The position numbers and the translations under genes are program-made. The notes below the pieces were generated by a model, which made no database searches, was not told the origin of the DNA, and saw only the letters and a program-made list of their open reading frames with translations. A stretch of 64,000 nt of DNA from Haloarcula marina (lineage in GTDB: Archaea; Halobacteriota; Halobacteria; Halobacteriales; Haloarculaceae). The stretch spans positions 930,001-994,000 of the forward strand of contig NZ_CP100404.1 in assembly GCF_024218775.1 (NCBI RefSeq). Direction: 5' to 3'. This document shows, one piece after another, positions 464 to 14,635 of the stretch (position 1 is its first letter; each line of letters begins with the position of its first letter).

Positions 464-1240
464 ATGCGTCCCGAGAGTACCGCTATCGTCACTGGTGGCG
501 CCCGCGGTATCGGACAGTCAATCTGTGTAGAACTCGCGCGAAGAGGGGCGGACGTCGTCGTCGCTGACCTCAATGGCGACGAGATGGCCGAAACCGAGAC
601 GCTGGTCGAGGAGACCGGTCAGCGCTGCGTCGGCGTCGAGACCGACGTGTCCTCGGCCGACAGCGTCGGCAGTACGGTCGACTGGGTACTCGACGAGTTC
701 GGGTCCATCGAGTGTCTGGTAAACAACGCGGGTATCGCCGGCCCGACGGCACCCTGCGAGGACGTTCAGCCGGAAGATTGGGAGCAGACGCTCGCCGTCA
801 ACCTCAAGGGGCCCTTCCAGATGTGTCGGGCCGTCATCCCGCAGATGAAGCAGGCGTCGTACGGTCGCATCGTCAACATCGCCTCGGTGACCGGGAAGCG
901 ACCGCTGCCGAACCGGACCCCCTACGCGACGAGCAAGATGGGTGTTATCGGACTGACGCGGACGCTGGCGGCCGAAGTAGGCGGCGAGAACATCAACGTC
1001 AACGCTGTCTGCCCGGGGTCCGTTGAGGGGCCTCGCATCCGGAAGGTCTTCGAGCGCCAGGCCTCCGAGACCGGCCGAACCTACGAGGAAATCAGAGGTG
1101 ACGTCGAACGGGAGACAGCACGCGGCGAACTCGTCGAACGGGAGGACGTCGCGGACCTGGTCGGCTACCTCTGTTCGGAACAGTCGAAACGAATCACCGG
1201 GCAGGACATCAACGTCTCGGCCGGGAAAATCATGTATTGA
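464..1240 (+). CDS. Short-chain dehydrogenase/reductase (classical SDR)
   Basis: A 258-residue classical SDR. It has the Rossmann glycine motif TGGARGIG (residues 10-17), NNAG (87-90) and the catalytic set Ser141, Tyr154 and Lys158. These enzymes oxidise a hydroxyl to a keto group, or the reverse, with NAD(P). Asp35 at the end of beta-2 (VVVADL) suggests NAD preference. The ATG is supported by the TATA box just upstream. It lies between the divergent keto-acid cleavage gene and the ABC transporter, so it may make a keto intermediate for the same pathway. The substrate is not determinable. Confidence 0.9.
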   Translation: MRPESTAIVTGGARGIGQSICVELARRGADVVVADLNGDEMAETETLVEETGQRCVGVETDVSSADSVGSTVDWVLDEFGSIECLVNNAGIAGPTAPCEDVQPEDWEQTLAVNLKGPFQMCRAVIPQMKQASYGRIVNIASVTGKRPLPNRTPYATSKMGVIGLTRTLAAEVGGENINVNAVCPGSVEGPRIRKVFERQASETGRTYEEIRGDVERETARGELVEREDVADLVGYLCSEQSKRITGQDINVSAGKIMY

Positions 1241-1388: not shown

Positions 1389-2756
1389 ATGTCAAACAAG
1401 CAGCCTTCAGGTTCGAGACGGACGTTTATGAATCGGCTCGCCGCCGCCGGTAGCGTGGGCCTCCTCGGCTCGCTCGCCGGTTGTGGTGGCAGTTCGGACG
1501 GCGGTTCCGATGGGTCCTCGGGTTCCGATGGGGGCACCAGCAGCGACGGTAGCAGTGACGGCAGCAGTGATGGTTCCAGTGACGGTGGGAGTGGCTCGCT
1601 GACTTCGATGGCCTCGATCGCCAACCGCCAGAACTCGTACTGGCTCAGCTGGGAGAAAGGCTACCTAGAGGCTGCAGAGGCCTTCGGATACGACACGAAC
1701 GTCCAGACGAACAACGGTGAGGTCCAGACACAGCAACAGCAGTTCGACACGGCGGTGTCGAACAACTCGGACTTCATCGTCGGCCAGACGTACACCAACG
1801 CCGCCGCAATCACGCTCGCGGAGACGCTGGCGAGCAGCGGCACGCCGGGTGTCCTCGCGGTCACCATCGCCGACTGGTTCGTCCCGCAGGACGCCGGTGA
1901 CGAGTACGTGACGTTCTTCACGCCGCACTTCGTCAACCACGCCTACAGCGCGGCGAAGATGCTGTTCGAGGCGATGGGCGGCAGCGGGACGTTCGTCCAC
2001 ATCGAGGGCAACCGCGGTACCGCACCCAACATCGGCCGGAACAAGGGCGTCGACCTCGCGATGGAGGAGTACCCGGACATCGAAATGGCTGGCAATCGAC
2101 AGCCCGGGAACTGGATTCGCTCGGACGCTCGGCAGGTCATGAACGACAAGGTGTCCCAGTTCGGCGACGATATCGACGGCTTCTTCGGCCAGAACGACGC
2201 CGTCGCACTCGGCGGCCTCACGATTCTGGAGGAGAACGACATCGACGTGCCCGTCGTCGGCATCGACGCCAGCGAACCCGGCCTCGCGGCCGTCGACGAC
2301 GGCCGCATGACCGGGACCGTCTCGGGCATGGGGCCGTGGCAGGCTGGCTGGTCCGTGGCGAAGTGCCACGACTACATCAACGGCCACACGCTCACCCCCG
2401 CCGAGAAGATGATGTCGTTCAACGCCCCGGTCTGTGTGAAAGACCCGAGCCAGTGGAGCGACGTCATCGACCGGCTTCCGGTCGTCGACGCGGCCGAGTA
2501 CAACACGGCAATCTTCGACGGCGAAACCCCGTACGACTGGAAGAAGATGTCCGTGGTCGAGGCTGGCGAGGACGCGTGGGACCCCCAAATCGACCTGTCC
2601 CCGATGAACCTCGACGACATGAAGACGGTCCTCGACTGGAAAGAGGGCGACAAACCGGACGGCTACAGCCTTCCGGACGCCTACACGGACGACGCGACGC
2701 AGGAAGAGATCACGACGCTCTACGAGGACCAATTTACTAGTAACCCGCTCAAATAA
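1389..2756 (+). CDS. ABC transporter substrate-binding lipoprotein, RbsB-like
   Basis: A 455-residue exported binding protein. The N-terminus has a Tat signal with SRRTF and a lipobox ending LAGC, so the mature protein should be a lipid-anchored, pre-folded lipoprotein outside the membrane. A Ser/Asp/Gly-rich linker (about residues 35-72) spaces it from the membrane. The rest (about 75-455) is a periplasmic-binding-protein type 1 fold of the sugar (CUT2) kind: GQTYTN, HIEGN, IDGFFGQND and VVGIDAS are recognisable. It is larger than typical RbsB proteins (about 300), with a C-terminal extension of about 110 residues. The ATPase gene starts 14 nt downstream. It is about 60% identical to the C-terminal domain of the chemotaxis protein at 5471. 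The ligand is unknown. Confidence 0.9.
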   Translation: MSNKQPSGSRRTFMNRLAAAGSVGLLGSLAGCGGSSDGGSDGSSGSDGGTSSDGSSDGSSDGSSDGGSGSLTSMASIANRQNSYWLSWEKGYLEAAEAFGYDTNVQTNNGEVQTQQQQFDTAVSNNSDFIVGQTYTNAAAITLAETLASSGTPGVLAVTIADWFVPQDAGDEYVTFFTPHFVNHAYSAAKMLFEAMGGSGTFVHIEGNRGTAPNIGRNKGVDLAMEEYPDIEMAGNRQPGNWIRSDARQVMNDKVSQFGDDIDGFFGQNDAVALGGLTILEENDIDVPVVGIDASEPGLAAVDDGRMTGTVSGMGPWQAGWSVAKCHDYINGHTLTPAEKMMSFNAPVCVKDPSQWSDVIDRLPVVDAAEYNTAIFDGETPYDWKKMSVVEAGEDAWDPQIDLSPMNLDDMKTVLDWKEGDKPDGYSLPDAYTDDATQEEITTLYEDQFTSNPLK

Positions 2757-2770
2757 TCACACCGAATCCA

Positions 2771-4345
2771 ATGGCCTCCGAGACACACACGAACGCGATG
2801 GAAACCGACCAGACCGACCCATCAGCCGACGGCGACTACAGCTTCCGAGTGGAGGGTATCTCGAAATCCTTCCGGCACGTCCAGGCACTCGCGGACGTCT
2901 CACTCGCCGTCGACCACGGTGAAGTCATCGGATTGGTCGGGGAGAACGGAGCCGGGAAGAGCACGCTACTGAACATCCTGACGGGCGTGCTGCAGGCCGA
3001 CGAGGGGCAACTCTTCGTCGACGGCGAACCGGTCTCCTTCACCAATCCGCGCGAAGCGGCGAACTACGGTGTCTCTCTCGTCCACCAGGAGCAAGACGTC
3101 ATCACGACCCTCCGTGGGTACGAGAACCTCTATCTCGGACGGGAGCAAGAGCGCCTCGGTGTCCTCGAGAAAAACCGAATGCGCGAGGAGGCCCAAGCGT
3201 TCGTCGACGAACTCGGCATCAACATCGATGTCGACGAGCGGGTCAGCAACTACACGTTCAACGAGCGCCAGATGCTCGAAATCGCGAAGGCGTTCCACGT
3301 CTCCCAGAAATCGGAGAATCCGGTCATCCTCTTAGACGAGCCGACGGCCGGACTCGAAGAGAGCGGCCGGGAGATACTGTTCGACCTCGTCAACGACCTC
3401 CGGGACCGTGCGACCTTCGTCTTCGTCTCGCACGAACTCGACGAAGTGCTCGAAATATCCGACCGCATCTACGTTCTCAAGGACGGCGAGCGGGTGGACG
3501 TCACCGACGTGGCCGATGCGACGACCGACTCCCTGCAACGGTCGATGGTCGGCCGGGAGACGGCGGACGAGTACTACCGCGTCCCCGACCAGCGCCGCGA
3601 GGCGAGCCTCGGCGAGACGGCGATGGACGTCGACGCAGTCGAACACGAGGAGACGGTCGGTCCGGTTTCCTTCTCTGTCCGCGAGGGAGAGATATTCGGT
3701 ATCGTCGGCGTCGAGGGGTCCGGGAAGCAGCGTCTCGGTCGCCTGCTCGCGGGCGATTTGGAACTGACCAGCGGTTCGATGGCCGTCCAGGGAACGACCC
3801 TCGAGAACCCGTCGGTCTCAGACATGGTCGACGCTGGCGTCGGGTACATCCCGAAAGACCGGAAATCCGAGGGACTGTTGCTGTATCAGTCGGTCCTGGT
3901 GAACACCTCCCTGGCGATGGTCAGGGACATGAACGGTCGGCTGCCGCTGCTCGACCTCGACGCCGAGCAGGAGGCGGCCATCGATGCCATCGAGGAACTC
4001 GCTATCAAGACTCCGGGACCGAACGCACTGGTCCACGGACTCAGTGGCGGGAACCAGCAGAAGGTCGTCATCGCGCGATGGTTGGCCCAGGAGACGCCGG
4101 TTCTGGTGATGGACAACGTCACCCGGGGAATCGACGTCGGGGCCAAAGAAGAGGTTTACCGCCTGTGCCGCGAACTGACCGACTCGGGCGTCTCGATCGT
4201 CTTCATCGGCGACGAACTCCCCGAAGTCATCGGTATGTCGAACCGTATCGCCGTGATGGCGAAAGGCGAATTCGTCGGCGAGCCGTTCGATGCGTCGCCC
4301 GGTAACAAACCAACCGAAGAAGACCTAATTCAGGAGATGATCTAA
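2771..4345 (+). CDS. Sugar-type ABC transporter ATPase with two nucleotide-binding domains, RbsA-like
   Basis: A 524-residue cytoplasmic ATPase with two fused ABC domains, the layout of CUT2 importers (RbsA/XylG/MglA). Domain 1 has a Walker A GENGAGKST, Walker B ILLDEPTAG and a degenerate signature (NERQMLEIAKA). Domain 2 has a degenerate Walker A (GVEGSGKQR) and a canonical signature LSGGNQQKV. This asymmetry is normal for the family, where one site carries most hydrolysis. An in-frame ATG at 2801 is an alternative start because the first ten residues are not part of the fold. The permease gene begins 2 nt after the stop, so the three genes form one operon. Confidence 0.93.
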   Translation: MASETHTNAMETDQTDPSADGDYSFRVEGISKSFRHVQALADVSLAVDHGEVIGLVGENGAGKSTLLNILTGVLQADEGQLFVDGEPVSFTNPREAANYGVSLVHQEQDVITTLRGYENLYLGREQERLGVLEKNRMREEAQAFVDELGINIDVDERVSNYTFNERQMLEIAKAFHVSQKSENPVILLDEPTAGLEESGREILFDLVNDLRDRATFVFVSHELDEVLEISDRIYVLKDGERVDVTDVADATTDSLQRSMVGRETADEYYRVPDQRREASLGETAMDVDAVEHEETVGPVSFSVREGEIFGIVGVEGSGKQRLGRLLAGDLELTSGSMAVQGTTLENPSVSDMVDAGVGYIPKDRKSEGLLLYQSVLVNTSLAMVRDMNGRLPLLDLDAEQEAAIDAIEELAIKTPGPNALVHGLSGGNQQKVVIARWLAQETPVLVMDNVTRGIDVGAKEEVYRLCRELTDSGVSIVFIGDELPEVIGMSNRIAVMAKGEFVGEPFDASPGNKPTEEDLIQEMI

Positions 4346-4347
4346 CA

Positions 4348-5340
4348 ATGAGTACGAGTACCGTCACAGAGTGGATTTCCGACCAACGAGAGCAGCGCAC
4401 CCTTCAGGACTGGATTCAAGACCTCGGGCCGTTCGTCATGCTCTTCGGGCTGATGGTTATCTTCACGTTCACCACGGAACGATTCTTCACCGAGGCGAAC
4501 CTCCTCGATAACGTGGCGAAAAACGCCGTCACGTTGCTACTGGTCGCGCTGGCCGGGACCTTCCCCATCCTCCAGCAGAGCATCGACCTCTCGGTCGAGT
4601 CGGTCGTTCTCCTGACCGGTGTCGTGACCGTCGTCCTAATCGCGGAGTTCGGCCTCGGCCTGCTGGCTATCCCGCTGGCGATCGGTGTGGGAATGCTGGC
4701 CGGACTGTTCAACGGGCTGGTCTTCACGAAACTGAAGGTCCCCTCGTTCCTGGTCACGCTCGGGACGCTCTCGGTGCTGGCCGGTGTCGGGAAGATAATC
4801 ACCGGCGGGTCCACCATCACCTTCCGGAACGACGCGATTCGCGCCATCTCGACCGGCGACGTACTGGGTATTCCCAACCTCGTGCTCTGGGGCCTGCTCA
4901 TCTACGGCGTCACTATCGTGCTGGCGTTCCGGACCAAGTTCGGCCGGTACTGTTTCGCGCTCGGCGAGAACGAGCGCGTCGTCGAACTCGCTGGCGCGAA
5001 GGTCGACCGATACAAGATATACCCGTTCGTGCTGTCTGGACTGCTCTGTGGAATCGCTGGCGTGCTACTGACGCTACGGATCTCTTCGGCATCGCCGAAC
5101 ATCGGGAGCGGCCTCTTGCTCCCCAGCATCGCCGCTATCGTCATGGGCGGGACAGCGCTGACCGGCGGCGTCGGCGGCCCACACCGGACGATACTGGGCG
5201 TCCTCGTCATCGCGGTTCTGAACAACGGCATGAACCTGCTCGGTATCGACTCGTTCGTCCAGGAGATAATCCTCGGCCTCGTCGTCGTGGCTGCCGTCGC
5301 ACTCTCCATCGACCGCGACAAGATAGACGTCGTGAAGTAA
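4348..5340 (+). CDS. Sugar-type ABC transporter permease, RbsC-like
   Basis: A 330-residue integral membrane protein of the BPD_transp_2 family with about 8-10 hydrophobic helices from residue 30 onward. It carries motifs seen in RbsC/XylH permeases: QQSIDLSVES near residue 75, GLVFTKLKVPSFLVTLGT near 130 and MGGTALTGGVGG near 265. One permease gene is present, so it probably forms a homodimer with the preceding ATPase. The operon appears to end here. No U-rich terminator is obvious before the chemotaxis gene at 5471, which has its own promoter. Confidence 0.92.
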   Translation: MSTSTVTEWISDQREQRTLQDWIQDLGPFVMLFGLMVIFTFTTERFFTEANLLDNVAKNAVTLLLVALAGTFPILQQSIDLSVESVVLLTGVVTVVLIAEFGLGLLAIPLAIGVGMLAGLFNGLVFTKLKVPSFLVTLGTLSVLAGVGKIITGGSTITFRNDAIRAISTGDVLGIPNLVLWGLLIYGVTIVLAFRTKFGRYCFALGENERVVELAGAKVDRYKIYPFVLSGLLCGIAGVLLTLRISSASPNIGSGLLLPSIAAIVMGGTALTGGVGGPHRTILGVLVIAVLNNGMNLLGIDSFVQEIILGLVVVAAVALSIDRDKIDVVK

Positions 5341-5441: not shown

Positions 5442-5449
5442 TTTAAGTA
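5442..5449 (+). promoter_or_regulatory. TATA box of the chemotaxis fusion gene
   Basis: TTTAAGTA lies 22-29 nt before the ATG at 5471, inside a markedly AT-rich patch (5401-5450). The fusion gene is therefore probably transcribed separately from the transporter. Confidence 0.5.
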
Positions 5450-5470: not shown

Positions 5471-7867
5471 ATGGGTGGCGATAAGCAGATTTCCGGTTCA
5501 CAGAGTCCCGTCGGAACGGCCGGTTCGGACGATGCTGGCGGCGTCGCTGCGGAACTCGACGAACTTCGAGCGGTGATGGACGCCTGTGCGAACGGAGATT
5601 TCACGAGGCGATTCGAAACGGAGAGCGACGACGAGGATATCGCCGCACTCGCGGCGTCGTTCAACGACGTGATGGACGAGGTAGAGCAACAGGTCGGGCA
5701 GGTGAACGGGTTGGCGGCCGTCCTCACGGACGCCAGTGAGGAGGTCGCCACCGGTGCGAGGGCGGTCCGAGACGCCAGCGACACCGCGAGCAGGCGGACC
5801 GAAGACATCGCCGTAAACACCTCCGAACAGAAGCAGCGCCTCGATACAATCGCCGTCGAGATGGAGTCGCTGTCGGCCAGCATCGAAGAGGTCTCCGCCT
5901 CCTCGGCCACCGTGGCCGAAACGGCCGCGGAGACGCTTCGGCGTGGCGAGGAGGGACACAGTGCAGCGAAAGACGCGCTCGAAGAAGTCGACGAAATACT
6001 CGAAACCACCGACTCGACGGCCGAGAAGATGTCTGAACTCGAACGGAAGGTCCTCCAGATCGGTGAAATCGTCGACCTCATTTCGGAGATCGCAGACCAG
6101 ACCAACATGCTCGCGCTGAACGCCAAAATCGAGGCCGCACGGGCGGGCGAGGCCGGTGCGGGATTCGCCGTCGTCGCGAACAACGTCCAGGAACTCGCGA
6201 ACGAGACGATTTCGGCGGCCGACCAGATTGCCGCGGTGGTCGAGGAGGTACAGGCCCAGACCGACGAGGCGGTGGGTGATATGACGCAGATGCAAGCGAA
6301 CGTCGAGACCGGCGTCGAGACAATCGAGACGGCTCTCGAAGCCCTCACGGACATCACCGCCCACATCGAAGACACCAACCACGGTATCCAGGAGATAAAC
6401 GAGGCCGCAGAACAGCAAGCCGAGGCCGCTCAGCGTATCTTCGCGAGCGTCGACGACGTGGCAGCGTTGAGCAAAGCGGTCAACGACCAGGGCGAAGACG
6501 TGGCCGATTCGGTCAGGAATCAGGCGGACGCCGCCGCGGAGATTACCGACAGTTCGCTCCGCCTGACGCAGTACGTCGACATGCTCGACTCGGCGGTCGA
6601 CGGCTACGAAACGGACGAGGCTATCTCGGCCCGAGCGAAGGACAGCGCACTAGACGAAGCGAGGGTGCGACGGGCCAACTCGTCGAGTGGCGAGAGCGAC
6701 CACAGCGAGGCCACGTCGATGGGGACGGTCGCCGACCTCGACAACTCCTACTGGCTCTCGTGGGCGAAGGGCTACCGAAACGCGGCGGACGCGTTGGGGT
6801 ACAGGACCAACGTCGCGGCCAACGACGGGGACGTCGACACACAACGCCAGCAGTTCGAGGACGCAATCCAGAACGGTGTCGACGCCATCGTCGGCCAGAC
6901 CTACACGAACGAATCGTCAGTCGAGTTCACCGAACGGTGCGTCGAAGCGGGCGTCCCGACAGTGCTCGCCGTCACTATCGCTGACTGGTATACGCCCCAC
7001 GACGCCGGCGACGAGTACGTGCAGTATCTCGCTCCCCACTTCGTCAATCACGCGTACACCGCGGCGAAAGTCCTCTTCGAAGAGATGGGCGGCGAGGGGC
7101 GATTCGTCCACATCGAAGGGAATCCCGGGACGGCCGTCAACGCTGGCCGAAACAGCGGCGTCGAACGCGCGCTTCGCGAGTATCCCGGCATCGAACTGGT
7201 CGGCGAACGCCGGGCGGGGAACTTCGTCAAGCACGTGGCGACCGACGTGATGGGTGAACTGGTTCACAGACACGGAACCGAGATAGACGGCTTCTTCGCG
7301 CAGAACCTCTCAATCGCCGAGGGCGGCCTCTCGGTGCTCAAGGAAAACGGACTCGACGTGCCGATAGCCACTATCGACGCGAGCGAACAGGGGCTAGCCA
7401 GAGTCCTCAACGGCGAGATTACGGCCACCGTCTCCGGCATGGCCCCGTGGCAGGCGGCGTGGTCGCTCGCGAAAGTCCACGATTACCGCAACGGACACAC
7501 TCTCGAACCGGCCGAGCGGATGATGACGTTCAACGCGCCGCTGTGCGTCAAAGACCCGGATAGATGGCGCGGCATCGTCGACAGGATTCCGGTCGTCGAC
7601 GCGGAGACGTACAAGCGAGAGGTGTTCGATGCGGAGATGCCCTACGACTGGCGGAAGATGTCGGTCGTCGAGTCCGGTGAGGGGTGGGACCCGCAGATAG
7701 AGATGCAACCGATTCGCCAGTCCGACCTGACGGACCTTCTCGGGTGGGACCGCTCGGAGAAACCGGCGGAGTACGCAGTGCCGGACGCCCTGCGTGACGA
7801 CCGGGCGCTCGACGCCGTCGAACGGACGTACGCGACGCAGTTCCAACACGACCCGCTGAACCTCTAG
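5471..7867 (+). CDS. Soluble chemotaxis transducer fused to a C-terminal substrate-binding protein domain
   Basis: A 798-residue protein with no transmembrane segment or signal peptide, hence cytoplasmic. Residues about 30-75 resemble a HAMP unit (NGDFTRRFE and NDVMDEVEQ). Residues about 80-390 form the methyl-accepting coiled coil with the hairpin tip DQTNMLALNAKIEAARAGE (near 207-225), where CheW/CheA bind. After a Ser-rich linker (about 395-413), residues about 414-798 are a complete RbsB-type binding protein matching the one encoded at 1389. The first 64 aligned residues are about 60% identical by eye and the match runs to the C-terminus. A few positions differ: QND in the lipoprotein is QNL here, and VVGIDAS is IATIDAS. 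Most receptors carry the sensor N-terminally and outside the membrane. Here it is C-terminal and inside, suggesting it monitors imported solute. Confidence 0.92.
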   Translation: MGGDKQISGSQSPVGTAGSDDAGGVAAELDELRAVMDACANGDFTRRFETESDDEDIAALAASFNDVMDEVEQQVGQVNGLAAVLTDASEEVATGARAVRDASDTASRRTEDIAVNTSEQKQRLDTIAVEMESLSASIEEVSASSATVAETAAETLRRGEEGHSAAKDALEEVDEILETTDSTAEKMSELERKVLQIGEIVDLISEIADQTNMLALNAKIEAARAGEAGAGFAVVANNVQELANETISAADQIAAVVEEVQAQTDEAVGDMTQMQANVETGVETIETALEALTDITAHIEDTNHGIQEINEAAEQQAEAAQRIFASVDDVAALSKAVNDQGEDVADSVRNQADAAAEITDSSLRLTQYVDMLDSAVDGYETDEAISARAKDSALDEARVRRANSSSGESDHSEATSMGTVADLDNSYWLSWAKGYRNAADALGYRTNVAANDGDVDTQRQQFEDAIQNGVDAIVGQTYTNESSVEFTERCVEAGVPTVLAVTIADWYTPHDAGDEYVQYLAPHFVNHAYTAAKVLFEEMGGEGRFVHIEGNPGTAVNAGRNSGVERALREYPGIELVGERRAGNFVKHVATDVMGELVHRHGTEIDGFFAQNLSIAEGGLSVLKENGLDVPIATIDASEQGLARVLNGEITATVSGMAPWQAAWSLAKVHDYRNGHTLEPAERMMTFNAPLCVKDPDRWRGIVDRIPVVDAETYKREVFDAEMPYDWRKMSVVESGEGWDPQIEMQPIRQSDLTDLLGWDRSEKPAEYAVPDALRDDRALDAVERTYATQFQHDPLNL

Positions 7868-7913: not shown

Positions 7914-8669
7914 TCAAACCGTGAAGCCACCGTCCATCACGAGGTTGTGACCCGTGATGAACGACGCGTCGTCGCTGGCGAGGAACAGGACGCCGTCGGC
8001 GACTTCCTCCGGTTGTCCGGCCCGACCGAGCGGCGTCTCTTCGAGCAGTCCATCGATTGTGTCGCCGTCTTCGAGCGTCATCGCCGTCTCGATGACGCCC
8101 GGATTGATGGCGTTGACACGGATGTTGTTCTCGCCGTGTTCCAGTGCGAGTTGTCTGGTGAGATTCGTGACGCCCCCTTTCGAGGTGCAGTAGAGCGAAG
8201 AGTTATCGACCGCACCGATGCCAGCGATAGACGACATGTTGACGATTGCACCGCCGTGTTCCTGTTCGACCATCGCGTCGATTGCCGCCTGACAGCCGAA
8301 GTAGACGCCGCGAAGGTTGATGTCCATGAGCAGCTCGTAGTCGTCGGGCCCGGCCTCCAGAATCGGCATCTGTCGGTCGATTCCGGCGTTGTTCACCATC
8401 ACGTCGAGTGCGCCGAACTCCGCGACGTGGGCATCGACGGCGGCGTGGAGGTCGTCTGGCTTGCTGACGTCGCACTTGACGAACTGGACGTCGCCACCCA
8501 TCTCCTCGATGACGACGTGCGTCGGGTCGCCGCCCATCCGCGGTTCCTCTCGAATGTCGCTGACCGTGACGGCGGCGCCTTCTTCGGCGAATTTCCGCGC
8601 GATTGCGCGCCCGTTCCCCGAGGCGGCACCCGTGACGAGGACTGACCGTCCTTCGAACCGATCTGACAT
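7914..8669 (-). CDS. Short-chain dehydrogenase/reductase, second copy in the island
   Basis: A 251-residue classical SDR with NAD(P)-binding motif TGAASGNG (residues 13-20), NNAG (93-96) and catalytic Ser147, Tyr160 and Lys164. The usual GxGxxG-like GIG is GNG here, an unusual Asn in the glycine-rich turn. It ends in DGGFTV, typical of SDRs that complete the fold with a C-terminal loop. It is convergent with the chemotaxis fusion gene and divergent from the aldehyde dehydrogenase gene. The pair could oxidise an alcohol or sugar hydroxyl and then an aldehyde. A TATA-like ATAAATACTTATC lies upstream on the minus strand (8697-8710). The substrate is unknown. Confidence 0.9.
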   Translation of the reverse strand: MSDRFEGRSVLVTGAASGNGRAIARKFAEEGAAVTVSDIREEPRMGGDPTHVVIEEMGGDVQFVKCDVSKPDDLHAAVDAHVAEFGALDVMVNNAGIDRQMPILEAGPDDYELLMDINLRGVYFGCQAAIDAMVEQEHGGAIVNMSSIAGIGAVDNSSLYCTSKGGVTNLTRQLALEHGENNIRVNAINPGVIETAMTLEDGDTIDGLLEETPLGRAGQPEEVADGVLFLASDDASFITGHNLVMDGGFTV

Positions 8670-8860
8670 AATCGTCTGCTGATTTCGGTTCGTTCACGAT
8701 AAGTATTTATGATTAATCCTGACATTTGCGCGCGCCGTCGCGGCGTCGGCTCTCAGCATCTGGTCGCCGACGGGGCGCCACTGGCAGATGTTTTCCTCTC
8801 GGTGGCACACCGAGCGACGAACGGACCGTCACCGTCGTGATGTCCGACGCCTGTCAAAAA

Positions 8861-8870
8861 CGCTTATCGG
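8861..8870 (+). promoter_or_regulatory. TATA box of the aldehyde dehydrogenase gene
   Basis: CGCTTATCGG lies 26-35 nt before the ATG at 8896. It supports that start over the longer in-frame ATG at 8788. Confidence 0.5.
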
Positions 8871-8895
8871 GATACGCAGTGATGGTCTACACAGG

Positions 8896-10353
8896 ATGTC
8901 GACAGACGACCAATCAGCGGTCGCCGACCAGTACGGCGTGTTAATCGACGGGACCGAACGGGACGCATCGTCGGGCGAAACCATCGCTGTCTACGACCCG
9001 GCGACGGGCGACCGACTCACCGACGTCGCGGCCGGGACGGCGGGCGACGTGGACGAGGCCGTCTCGGTGGCCCACGAGGGCTTCGAGACGTGGCGTGGCT
9101 ACACACCGGCCAAGCGATGTCGCATTCTCAACGACGTGGCACGGGCCATCCGCGAGGAGAAAGAGCGCTTCGCCCGCATCGAGACGCTGGAGAACGGGAA
9201 GCCCCTCTCGGAAGCTATCGGGCAGGTAGAGCGGTGCGCCCGGCACTTCGAGTACTACGGCGGCCTCGCGGACAAAGTCGAGGGCGAGAGCATCCCGCTG
9301 GACGACGGGCACGTGGACTACACGATTCGAGAGCCAGTCGGCGTCACCGGCCACATCGTCCCGTGGAACGTCCCCATCTACCTGTTCGCCCGGAGCGTCG
9401 CACCCGCGCTCGCGGCCGGGAACGCCGCCGTCGTGAAACCGGCCGAGGAGACGCCGATAGGCGCGCTCGAACTCACCCGACTCCTCCACGAGAACGGCGT
9501 GCCGACGGCCGCCGTCAACGTCGTCCCGGGCGAGGGCGTCGCCGCCGGGGCGGCGCTCTCGGGGCATCCCGACCTCGGGACGATTACGTTCACGGGGTCG
9601 AGCGCGACGGGTCGAGAGGTCGGGAAGGCCGCGATAGCGAACCTCACCGAACCCCACCTCGAACTCGGCGGCAAGAGTCCGTTGGTGGTCTACGACGACG
9701 CGGACCTCGACGTTGCGGTCGCAGAGACGGTCAAGGGTATCTTCGCCACGAACACCGGGCAGGTCTGTTCGGCCTCCTCACGGGTCATCGTCCACGAAGC
9801 GGTCAGCGAGGCCTACGTCGAGAAACTCGTCGCGGCCGTCGAGGACCTCTCCATCGGCCCGGGTATCGACGACCACGACGTGGGACCGCTGGCCTCGGCA
9901 GCCCACTTAGACCGGGTCGCGGAGTACTTCGACGTCGGCCGGTCGGAGGTCGGGGACCCGGTCGTCGGCGGAAACGTGCTGGACCGTGACGGGTACTACG
10001 TCGAACCGACGGTGTTCGCGGACGTTCCGCAGGACGCGCGCATCCTCCAAGAGGAGGTCTTCGGACCGGTGCTGACCGTGAGCACGTTCGCCGACGAGGC
10101 AGAGGCCATCCAGCGGTCGAACGACGTGGACTACGGCCTCGTCGCGGGCGTCGTCACCACCGACATGGGCAGGGCCCACCGGTTCGCCCGGGAGGTCGAC
10201 GCCGGACAGATATACGTCAACGAGTGGTTCGCTGGCGGCAACGAGACGCCCTTCGGCGGCTTCAAGGACAGCGGTATCGGTCGGGAGAACGGTACGCAGG
10301 CCATCCACAACTACACCCAGATAAAGAACGTCTGTCTCGACATCTCGGAGTGA
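8896..10353 (+). CDS. NAD(P)-dependent aldehyde dehydrogenase
   Basis: A 485-residue ALDH-superfamily enzyme that oxidises an aldehyde to a carboxylate. Visible catalytic residues are Asn158 (VPWNVP), Glu256 (LELGGKSP) and the nucleophile Cys291 (GQVCSASS), with normal spacing. The C-terminal PFGGFKDSGIGRE motif is also present. The open frame extends upstream to 8788, but the 36 extra residues are basic and un-haloarchaeal in character. The TATA box at 8861 points to 8896, which begins MSTDDQSAV and gives the usual family length. It probably acts with the divergent SDR in stepwise oxidation of the imported compound. Confidence 0.93.
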   Translation: MSTDDQSAVADQYGVLIDGTERDASSGETIAVYDPATGDRLTDVAAGTAGDVDEAVSVAHEGFETWRGYTPAKRCRILNDVARAIREEKERFARIETLENGKPLSEAIGQVERCARHFEYYGGLADKVEGESIPLDDGHVDYTIREPVGVTGHIVPWNVPIYLFARSVAPALAAGNAAVVKPAEETPIGALELTRLLHENGVPTAAVNVVPGEGVAAGAALSGHPDLGTITFTGSSATGREVGKAAIANLTEPHLELGGKSPLVVYDDADLDVAVAETVKGIFATNTGQVCSASSRVIVHEAVSEAYVEKLVAAVEDLSIGPGIDDHDVGPLASAAHLDRVAEYFDVGRSEVGDPVVGGNVLDRDGYYVEPTVFADVPQDARILQEEVFGPVLTVSTFADEAEAIQRSNDVDYGLVAGVVTTDMGRAHRFAREVDAGQIYVNEWFAGGNETPFGGFKDSGIGRENGTQAIHNYTQIKNVCLDISE

Positions 10354-10532: not shown

Positions 10533-11642
10533 ATGTTAGAGAATGGCGAACTGGTTGTAGATGCAGTGTCACACTGTTTCAACCACGCCGAAGACAACCA
10601 CCTGCACCCGCACTCACAGCGGTGGGACGACGAGACGTACGAACTCGGCGAACAACTCATGCCCGAGGAGTACGTGTTTCCGGAGGAGATATTCTATCGG
10701 AACCACCAACCCGAGGAACTCGAACGCCTGCTCTTCTTAGAGAGCCAAATCGACTACTCGGTGTACCACTCGCTCCCGCTGGACGACTACTTCAAAGACG
10801 GCTACGTCTCCCGCGAGAAGGGATTCGAACTGCGCGAGCGCAACCCCAACCGGGTCGGGATGATAGTCGACATCAACCCGCTCGAAGACGACGCCGTCGA
10901 ACAGGTCGAGTACTACGCGAAGAAGAAGGACGTCGACGGCATCAAGTTGTATCCGGCACGCTACCAGAACGGCCGGGACCTCTCGCTCCGATTGAACGAG
11001 GACACGGTCCGCCCGGTCTTAGAGAAGGCCGCCGACCTCGACGTCGGGACCGTCGGCATCCACAAGTTCATCCCGTTCGCGACGGCACCGGTGAAGTACT
11101 TCCGCATCGACGACGTCGAGGAGGCCGCACTGGCGTTCCCCGAACTCAACTTCGAGGTCATCCACGCCGGATTCTCGTTCCTGGAGGAGACGGTGTTCGC
11201 GATGGCGAGTCACGACAACGTCTACGCCAACATCGAGAACACGGCCCACATGGCCTGCAGTCGCCCCGAGAAGTTCGCCCGCAGCCTCGGCGAGATGCTG
11301 TACTGGGCCGGTCCCGACCGCATCGTCTTCTCCAGTGGCGCGACCGCGCTGCACCCACAGCCACCCATCGACGCCATCTGGGACTTCGAGATGCCCGAGG
11401 ACCTCCGGTCCGGCGAGGACTACCCCGAGGTCACCCAGGAAGACAAGGAGAAGATTCTCGGGAAGAACAAGCTCCGCCTGATGGGCAAAGACCCCGAACA
11501 GGTGAAGAAAGACATCGAGGGCGACAAGTGGGACCAGAAGATTCAGGAACTGAAAGAACGCGGCGAGTACCCGGCCCCGCCGTGGTCGACCTACGAGGAC
11601 CCGAGCGAAGAGCCCTCGAAGGAACGAGTGAGGTACGTATGA
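10533..11642 (+). CDS. Amidohydrolase-2 family metal-dependent hydrolase
   Basis: A 369-residue TIM-barrel hydrolase of the amidohydrolase_2 group, whose members hydrolyse lactones or amides or decarboxylate ring-cleavage acids. Likely features are an N-terminal DAVSHCFNH (His residues near the first strand), DGIKLYPAR (near 133-141), GIHKF (near 173) and EVIHAGFSF (near 208), which fit successive barrel strands with metal-liganding His. It is acidic throughout, with a charged C-terminal tail. The stop overlaps the next start by 4 nt (ATGA), so the MIP18-like protein is translationally coupled. The reaction in this pathway is not known. Confidence 0.8.
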   Translation: MLENGELVVDAVSHCFNHAEDNHLHPHSQRWDDETYELGEQLMPEEYVFPEEIFYRNHQPEELERLLFLESQIDYSVYHSLPLDDYFKDGYVSREKGFELRERNPNRVGMIVDINPLEDDAVEQVEYYAKKKDVDGIKLYPARYQNGRDLSLRLNEDTVRPVLEKAADLDVGTVGIHKFIPFATAPVKYFRIDDVEEAALAFPELNFEVIHAGFSFLEETVFAMASHDNVYANIENTAHMACSRPEKFARSLGEMLYWAGPDRIVFSSGATALHPQPPIDAIWDFEMPEDLRSGEDYPEVTQEDKEKILGKNKLRLMGKDPEQVKKDIEGDKWDQKIQELKERGEYPAPPWSTYEDPSEEPSKERVRYV

Positions 11643-12637: not shown

Positions 12638-14635
12638 TTATCGAGCGTCGTCGATTGCGTCCAACGCACCGGGGTTCTCGACGCTCGAGAGGTCGCCGAT
12701 GTCCTCGCCGGTGTGGCGCGCCTGGATAGCTCGGCGAACGATTTTCCCGGACTGCGTGACGGGGAACTCGTCGACGAAGCGCACCTCTCGGGGCCGGAAC
12801 GGTTTCCCCAGTTCCTCGCCCACCAGCGCCCGCACCTCGCTTCGGAGGTCGTCTGACTCCGCGACGCCGTCTTCGGCGACGAGGTACAGCGCGACTGCGG
12901 TTCCGGTGGTGTCGTCCGGGACGCCGACCGCGGCGGCCTGATTGACGCCGTCGTGGTCCATCGCCGCGCCCTCGACCTCGGCGGGACCGACCTTTCTCCC
13001 GGCGATGTTCAGCGCGTCGTCGGCGCGGCCGTGGAGGAACCAGAACCCGTCTTCGTCCTTCTGCGCCCAGTCGCCGTGGTCCCAGAGGTCGTCCCACGTC
13101 GACCAGTACTCCTCCAGATACCGCTCGTCGCCGCTCCAGAGCGACCGCGTCATCGAGGGACAGGAGTCGCGCGCGACGAGGTACCCTCGCTCGTGGGTGT
13201 CGGCGATGGACTCCCCGTCGCTGTCGACGATGTCGATGTCCATCCCGAGGCCCGGCCCGCCGAGCGAACACGGCTTGAGTGGCTGGGTCGGCATCGGCAT
13301 CAGGAAGCAGCCGCATATCTCCGTTCCGCCGGAGATGTTGACGATGGGTATCTCGCTCCGGCCGACGTTCTCGTAGAACCACTGCCAACTCTCGGGGTCC
13401 CACGGTTCGCCGGTCGACCCGAGGACGCGGAGCGAGGAGAGGTCGTGGCCCTCCACCCAGTCGTCGCCCTTCTTCCGCAACGCCCGAATCGCGGTCGGCG
13501 AGATGCCGAACTGCGTGAGCGAGTGGCGGTCGATCATCTCCCAGAAACGGTCCGGTTCGGGGTAGTCGGGCGCGCCCTCGTACATGAACACCGTTCCGCC
13601 GAAGGTGTGGTTCCCGATGAGCGTCCACGGCCCCATCATCCACCCGATGTCCGAGACCCAGAAGAACCGGTCGCTGGGTTTCACGTCGAAGCCGAAGTGG
13701 AGTTCCTTCGCACACTGCATCTGGACGCCAGCGTGGGTGTGGACGATTCCTTTCGGCTTTCCGGTCGTCCCCGAGGAGTACAGCAACATCGCCGGGTCGC
13801 TCGCGTCCAGTTTCGCGCTCTCGTAGCCGTCTGACTGCGTTTCGACGGCGTCGGCCCAGCGCTCGTCGCGGCCGTCCGTCCAGGGCGTCGTCGCCCCGGT
13901 CCGTTCGTAGACGACGACCGAACTGACCTCGGTGTCCGCCTGCGCTATCGCCTCGTCGAGCGTGCCCTTCAGCGCGATTTCGCTCCCGCGGCGGTAGAAC
14001 CCGTCGGCGCTGAAGACGACCGCGGTGTCTGAATCTTCGAGCCGTGTCGCCGTCGCGTCGACACCGAACCCGGAGAAAATCGGGACGGCGATTGCACCCA
14101 CTTTGAAACAGCCGTAGAGGATGGAGATGACCTCCGGGACCATCGGCATGTAGAGACCGACGGTATCGCCTCGACCGACGCCGCGAGCGTCGAGCGCGTT
14201 CGCCACCTGATTGGACTGTCGGTGGAGTTCGTGGAACGTGATGTCCCGCGTCTCTCCGTCCTCGCCCTCCCAGATGCACGCGACCTTGTTCCGGCGTTCG
14301 TTGTCTTCGGCCGCGTGCCGGTCGAGGACGTTGTGTGCGAGGTTGAGGCTCCCACCGGGGTACCAGTCGGTGAACTGCGGCCCGTCCGTATCGTCTCGAA
14401 CGGCGTCGTAGTCCTCGTAAAACTCGATGCCGAGGTAGTCGACCAGTTCGTCCCAGAACCACTCGATTCCGGACGCGTCGACGCCATCGACATCGGTCGT
14501 CGTTCGCTCGATAAGTTCGTCGTAGTCGTCGATGTCGTACGCCTGCATGAACTGCCAGACGTTCGTCGACTCGACGTACTCTCGGGACGGTTCGTGGACT
14601 ATCCGCTCTGTCTCCGCGAGTGACTCGTTACTCAT
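12638..14635 (-). CDS. Acyl-CoA synthetase (AMP-forming), acetyl/acetoacetyl-CoA synthetase-like
   Basis: A 665-residue ANL-superfamily ligase that activates a carboxylic acid via an acyl-adenylate to its CoA thioester. It shows the P-loop-like SSGTTGKPKG (287-296), the SGGTEI motif of the central core, the C-terminal-domain hinge YxxGDWAxKDEDG and the catalytic lysine in TQSGKIVRR (Lys631). The N-terminal region (WFWDELVDYLGI and SLNLAHNVLDRH) matches the acetyl-CoA and acetoacetyl-CoA synthetase branch rather than long-chain ligases. With a thiolase and a keto-acid cleavage enzyme nearby, an acetoacetate- or short-acid-activating role is plausible but inferred. It is convergent with the Usp gene. 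Confidence 0.9.
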   Translation of the reverse strand: MSNESLAETERIVHEPSREYVESTNVWQFMQAYDIDDYDELIERTTTDVDGVDASGIEWFWDELVDYLGIEFYEDYDAVRDDTDGPQFTDWYPGGSLNLAHNVLDRHAAEDNERRNKVACIWEGEDGETRDITFHELHRQSNQVANALDARGVGRGDTVGLYMPMVPEVISILYGCFKVGAIAVPIFSGFGVDATATRLEDSDTAVVFSADGFYRRGSEIALKGTLDEAIAQADTEVSSVVVYERTGATTPWTDGRDERWADAVETQSDGYESAKLDASDPAMLLYSSGTTGKPKGIVHTHAGVQMQCAKELHFGFDVKPSDRFFWVSDIGWMMGPWTLIGNHTFGGTVFMYEGAPDYPEPDRFWEMIDRHSLTQFGISPTAIRALRKKGDDWVEGHDLSSLRVLGSTGEPWDPESWQWFYENVGRSEIPIVNISGGTEICGCFLMPMPTQPLKPCSLGGPGLGMDIDIVDSDGESIADTHERGYLVARDSCPSMTRSLWSGDERYLEEYWSTWDDLWDHGDWAQKDEDGFWFLHGRADDALNIAGRKVGPAEVEGAAMDHDGVNQAAAVGVPDDTTGTAVALYLVAEDGVAESDDLRSEVRALVGEELGKPFRPREVRFVDEFPVTQSGKIVRRAIQARHTGEDIGDLSSVENPGALDAIDDAR

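Follow-up and report, generated by a model that had tools for sequence, protein, structure and literature searches.

The window analysed here, a 64,000-nucleotide stretch of the Haloarcula marina genome, encodes a soluble chemotaxis transducer (MCP) that ends in a complete type-I binding protein (SBP) domain. The same architecture, a soluble MCP hairpin followed in one frame by a complete SBP with no membrane pass between them, was found with three SBP types: Peripla_BP_4, as in the window, UgpB-like and OpuAC. For the window protein we hypothesize, with moderate confidence, that it is a cytosolic transducer and steers the cell by the intracellular amount of a solute that the adjacent ABC system brings in, a ligand and a signalling role that we infer.

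Domain architecture and cellular location of the fusion protein

The fusion gene, its domains and the surrounding locus are listed in Table 1. A first-pass annotation of this DNA had described a complete MCP hairpin with a CheA/CheW tip followed by a full RbsB-type domain, and this description is borne out by the Pfam matches, the tip sequence and AF2 modeling. Peripla_BP_4 was assigned to residues 421-674 (E 4e-36, well over the cut-off), and any HAMP domain lies below threshold. Glu/Gln pairs, which are candidate methylation sites by sequence inspection, occur in both arms of the hairpin. The genome contains 11 MCP genes and encodes CheA, with H-kinase_dim above cut-off at G000:C1:426484. 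The TATA-like element upstream of the ATG suggests that the fusion gene possibly has its own promoter, with a short leader or none.

The fused domain belongs to the same family as the binding protein of the neighbouring transporter, the lipoprotein encoded at 1389. The earlier estimate of about 60% identity (39 of 64 residues at the start of the domain) agrees with BLASTP (219/383, 57%), and the alignment, 383 aa long with an E-value of 2e-170, reaches the last residues as had been noted.

The annotation had also placed the protein in the cytosol, having seen in it neither export signals (signal peptide, lipobox) nor a membrane helix, and both the sequence and a hydropathy scan agree. The maximum hydropathy (19-residue mean) is 1.06, too low for a membrane helix, and no signal peptide, Tat motif or lipobox was found in the fusion sequence; the cytosolic location is thus backed by a soluble sequence free of export signals. 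Because the Tat motif and lipobox characteristic of exported RbsB-type ABC binding proteins are absent, the fusion is not classed as a transporter subunit. By simple pattern matching, all stand-alone relatives tested but one (down to 54% identity) carry Tat RRxF, and most carry a lipobox. Tat substrates fold prior to export, so these relatives would fold in the cytosol, and a cytosolic version of the SBP can plausibly fold as well.

The sensor position had been called the reverse of ordinary receptors, which overstates the geometry. An antiparallel hairpin brings its N- and C-terminal ends together, opposite the CheA/CheW tip, and a C-terminal sensor would therefore be placed where an N-terminal one would be; the order of domains appears unusual, the geometry does not.

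Table 1. Features of the fusion gene and of the surrounding locus, in window coordinates
Feature	Coordinates	Strand	Evidence or remark
SDR oxidoreductase, first gene of the locus	464..1240	+	adh_short E 4e-60; syntenic in nearly all related loci
Stand-alone RbsB-type binding lipoprotein, Tat RRxF and lipobox	1389..2756	+	Peripla_BP_4 E 1e-32; 57% to fusion
CUT2-type sugar ABC ATPase, two ABC domains	2771..4345	+	ABC_tran, 2 stretches; AraG/RbsA-like
ABC permease, AraH/RbsC-like	4348..5340	+	BPD_transp_2 E 2e-39
TTTAAG, TATA-like element	5442..5447	+	~26 nt upstream of fusion ATG
MCP-SBP fusion gene	5471..7867	+	798 aa, one uninterrupted ORF
HAMP-like segment, residues 29-72	5555..5686	+	20.9 bits, Pfam cut-off 25
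MCP signalling domain, residues 166-333	5966..6469	+	MCPsignal PF00015, E 3e-41, 141.5 bits (cut-off 34.6)
Hairpin tip DQTNMLALNAKIEAARAGE, residues 209-227	6095..6151	+	canonical CheA/CheW tip
C-terminal type-I SBP domain, residues 414-798	6710..7864	+	AF2 fold, structure matches
Codon 613, D to L (QND to QNL), beside pocket Asn612	7307..7309	+	family alignment
Second SDR oxidoreductase of the locus	7914..8669	-	Pfam; synteny
Aldehyde dehydrogenase	8788..10353	+	Aldedh E 5e-166
Amidohydrolase, Amidohydro_2	10533..11642	+	followed by Fe-S assembly protein in syntenic Natronorubrum locus
Acyl-CoA synthetase, AMP-binding and ACAS_N	12638..14635	-	domain search

Fold and ligand pocket of the fused domain

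AF2 modeling of residues 414-798 with 28 relatives, a check proposed in the first-pass annotation, yielded a complete type-I SBP fold (pLDDT 93.6, pTM 0.91). The closest solved structure is 2rjo (Z 40.5 over 314 residues); the ribose-binding proteins 2ioy and 2dri match with Z 32.0 and 31.2, and the sensor BT1754 (2x7x) with Z 29.6. The model of the full-length fusion is less confident (pLDDT 75.1, pTM 0.53). In it, helices 55-158 and 163-228 lead to a turn at 229-231 and return as helices 232-337 and 343-377; an additional helix spans 23-40, a short helix spans 386-403, and the SBP starts from residue 414.

Thirteen pocket positions were mapped through alignment with 2ioy from the known ribose contacts of E. 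coli RBP, with the equivalents of D89 and Q235 placed to within one residue and that of F164 checked one residue off. The fusion and the lipoprotein at 1389 are identical in the alignment at 13/13 of these positions, including N425, Y427, W428, Q476, R560, N612 and D636. Such agreement is weakly informative (chance ~0.055 without special selection), because the fused domain keeps 80% of near-invariant family sites regardless (156/195, with 39/195 changed); the conserved pocket is consistent with a shared ligand rather than proof of one. The reported QND to QNL change (D613L) is real and occurs only in the fusion among 24 family members. The NDxxA motif is lost, the loop changes R552P/P556V are present, and clustering of the changed invariant sites is marginal (p 0.046).

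Genomic context and origin of the fused domain

The fusion gene sits within the conserved transport and catabolic locus of its own SBP family. Across 22 related neighbourhoods the gene order is largely conserved as SDR–SBP–ABC–permease–(aldehyde ferredoxin oxidoreductase, in many)–SDR–ALDH (in some)–amidohydrolase–Fe-S assembly protein–Usp–acyl-CoA synthetase. The enzymes of the locus (SDRs, ALDH, AFOR, Amidohydro_2 and acyl-CoA synthetase) suggest a small molecule yielding an alcohol or aldehyde and name no particular one. Bacterial synteny was tried as a guide to the substrate and gave no clear answer, the Bradyrhizobium relative (32%) lying in a different gene set. The conserved cluster of CUT2 transporter, two SDRs, ALDH, AFOR (in many loci), Amidohydro_2, Fe-S assembly protein and acyl-CoA synthetase apparently represents an undescribed haloarchaeal degradation pathway.

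The Peripla_BP_4 fusion itself is rare. The search proposed earlier, for such fusions beside RbsBAC genes, returned it from the source genome only: no other genome among 60 relatives, 391 sampled Halobacteria and 146 family genomes gave it, and no transducer is present in the syntenic loci (0/22 neighbourhoods). No plasmid-borne fusion occurs among the best matches listed, and a contig scan with the whole fusion protein returned only other MCPs. Some 22 stand-alone relatives of at least ~54% identity were found in the class sample (391 Halobacteria). In two genomes of the same genus only 135 and 83 bp separate the permease from the SDR, at the point that the fusion gene occupies in the window; with the locus and without the transducer, these two genomes offer a natural comparison.

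The fused domain had been taken for a copy of the neighbouring binding protein, a view that the tree does not support as worded. The lipoprotein at 1389 is one of 14 members of a tight clade (86-88% identity, support 100/100), and the fused domain lies near the base of the family on a separate terminal branch, whose length of 0.77 changes per site compares with a median of 0.063; its exact place is unsure because of the long branch. It is 53-61% identical to all family members and appears to be evolving about ten times faster than its relatives. The tree and the identities rule out a recent tandem duplication of the lipoprotein gene. The sequences would be better explained if the domain had been duplicated long ago, had come from a lineage that is not sampled or had accelerated strongly than if the present neighbour had been copied.

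SBP copies are found side by side elsewhere in this family. At L147:8912-10201 and 10669-11433 (-) a full SBP adjoins a shortened SBP frame of 255 aa (72% to the window lipoprotein), and the L149 genome holds two full copies, which indicates that duplication is recurrent in this SBP family.

Fusions to other binding-protein families

A second soluble MCP-SBP fusion is encoded in the same genome at G000:C1:2008612-2011185 (L178:7613-10189), between glpABC and glpK, with a C-terminal SBP_bac_8/SBP_bac_1 domain. This SBP is UgpB-like (NCBIfam 218 bits, under the equivalog cut-off), and its best PDB match is E. coli UgpB (E 5e-57). Full-length relatives were found in ~35 of 194 Halobacteria, along with two partial frames, and glpK lies within ~10 kb of the fusion gene in 8 of the 20 neighbourhoods examined and is absent from the rest. 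With the glycerol-phosphate pocket residues of UgpB taken from PMC12718374, and Ser266 left out of the count, Tyr64 and Glu88 are kept in 32/32 proteins, Ser143, Trp191 and Tyr342 in 35/35 and Gly303 in 34/35; Arg393 is kept in 21/35 and changed in 14/35, and Trp188 is kept in none.

Three glp-type orthologues (L193, L196 and L203) have a hydrophobic stretch within their first 60-80 residues, and the remaining orthologues are soluble; this stretch is perhaps a membrane anchor that keeps the SBP cytosolic, or an over-long frame. Directly after glpK, and conserved in the glp locus, lies a membrane-like protein (L178:11854-12930) that matches nothing in Pfam or NCBIfam and is a candidate for a glycerol permease.

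The third type joins a soluble MCP to a C-terminal OpuAC domain (glycine-betaine-type, E 3e-45). It occurs in two genomes, both of one other genus (L238:2558-4603 (-) and L253), and adjoins CheW-like and ArlJ-like genes, named by eye. Phylogenetically, the MCP half of the window protein groups with ordinary membrane transducers (98 SH-aLRT set), but tree tests neither establish nor reject a single clade of all fusions (p-AU 0.50). Some haloarchaeal transducers (L042:9551-13150; L235, L236, L242) end in a very long C-terminal tail, acidic and of low complexity, of ~330-730 aa.

Relation to known receptors

Several known proteins share part of this design. LacI/GalR-family repressors place a type-I binding fold in the cytosol, C-terminal to the output module; the layout is that of the fusion, with a DNA-binding domain as output there and an MCP coiled coil here. 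HemAT is a cytosolic MCP with a protoglobin sensor outside the coiled coil. TlpD-type receptors, likewise cytosolic MCPs, resemble the fusion in having a C-terminal sensing end outside the coiled coil (PMC6715182). The sensor domains of TlpD-type receptors and HemAT are CZB or globin, whereas that of the fusion is an SBP. BT1754, a hybrid two-component fructose sensor (2x7x), has a built-in type-I SBP like the fusion, but there it is the periplasmic sensor of a membrane histidine kinase.

Among haloarchaeal systems, BasB/BasT and CosB/CosT (PMC3579733) also use a transport-type binding protein as chemotaxis sensor, but they combine a separate outside binding protein with a membrane transducer, whereas the fusion is one soluble cytosolic chain. 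Car (Htr11), the arginine transducer of Halobacterium salinarum, is like the fusion a soluble haloarchaeal transducer that reads an internal nutrient; compared by its description only, it differs in that the paper mentions no type-I SBP domain at its C-terminus (PMC3579733).

The first-pass annotation knew of no described receptor of this design. This does not hold as worded: the second MCP-SBP fusion is widespread in haloarchaea, a third SBP family exists, and the text of a 2022 archaeal chemoreceptor census lists SBP_bac among the domain types (PMC9680633). According to that text, 44% of archaeal MCPs are cytoplasmic and in some the ligand-binding domain is C-terminal; the class V cytoplasmic chemoreceptors, built in this way, share the general layout of the fusion, which was therefore already known at census level. 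The text mentions neither a Peripla_BP_4 case nor a connection with a transport or glp locus, and it offers no mechanism. In the open-access literature we found no description of an SBP-tailed soluble MCP class, of its link to glp or ABC loci, of its mechanism, or of a haloarchaeal glycerol transducer.

Proposed mechanism and alternatives

We propose that the lipoprotein and the ABC importer (1389-5340), to judge from their families and synteny, would bring a small solute into the cell. The fused SBP, folded in the cytosol as its Tat-dependent relatives are before export, may bind this solute or a very close derivative, as the conserved pocket suggests. Venus-flytrap closure would then be passed on by the 386-403 helix and a ~10-residue linker and alter coiled-coil packing, and the hairpin tip seen in the sequence would in turn change CheA activity. 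CheA and CheY would bias the archaellum, so that the cell would follow the internal substrate level (uptake minus use) instead of the outside concentration. The cytosolic transducers Car, Htr13 and Htr15 of H. salinarum associate with CheW proteins, with which they co-purified (PMC3579733), which indicates that soluble transducers can join the pathway. The UgpB-type fusion beside glpK and glpABC may have the same role for glycerol phosphate.

The fused domain could instead sense a metabolite in the cytosol, its ligand having drifted to a pathway intermediate or another internal compound, a possibility we take seriously while considering it doubtful. Drift would suit the long branch, the 39 changed near-invariant sites, and the D613L and loop changes; the glp type, too, has an altered pocket, with Trp188 changed throughout and Arg393 in part, and its predicted ligand is the uptake product, glycerol phosphate, rather than glycerol. 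However, every mapped ligand-contact position is the same in fusion and lipoprotein, and the fusion gene stands within the transporter's own locus. It is unlikely that the domain binds nothing, either serving as a structural cap or dimeriser or belonging to a decaying gene. Fast evolution, occurrence in a single genome and loss of NDxxA would accord with this, but 798 codons are open with normal GC3, the predicted fold is confident, four-fifths of the near-invariant sites are kept, and related designs on two other SBP families are conserved across several genomes.

That the sensor is extracytoplasmic, through a missed export signal or membrane anchor, is very improbable: although the stand-alone relatives are exported and a hydrophobic stretch begins three of the glp-type orthologues, the window fusion has no hydrophobic segment, Tat motif or lipobox, its MCP hairpin has to work with CheA in the cytosol, and no membrane pass separates the hairpin from the SBP. 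That misassembly or a frameshift has artificially linked an MCP gene with the gene of a second lipoprotein, which the annotation had named as grounds for rejecting the fusion, is scarcely credible. This particular fusion is confined to one genome, but no frameshift was found: the reading frame runs on across the junction with even GC3, and stops close the alternative frames there. The linker, moreover, shows neither the signal peptide nor the Ser/Gly/Asp lipoprotein linker expected from a joined gene, the gene is internal in a three-contig genome, and the same architecture is found elsewhere.

The preferred reading, a transducer for the internal level of the imported solute, may extend to all three types. 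Whether these form a modular haloarchaeal class we regard as evenly balanced: it would consist of soluble transducers that carry transport-type binding proteins from three or more unrelated families, beside catabolic, uptake or che genes, and would serve navigation by the internal nutrient pool, glycerol phosphate in the common type, with the window protein as a rare member that evolves fast and reads a CUT2 substrate. Binding proteins are commonly regarded as scouts outside the cell; one placed inside and hard-wired to a transducer would mean steering by the lead of uptake over use. Of the finds, the glp-linked fusion type probably has the greater consequences. Glycerol is considered a main carbon source in brines, and since the glp-linked type is widespread and often adjoins glycerol kinase, its possible role in how haloarchaea find glycerol is directly testable.
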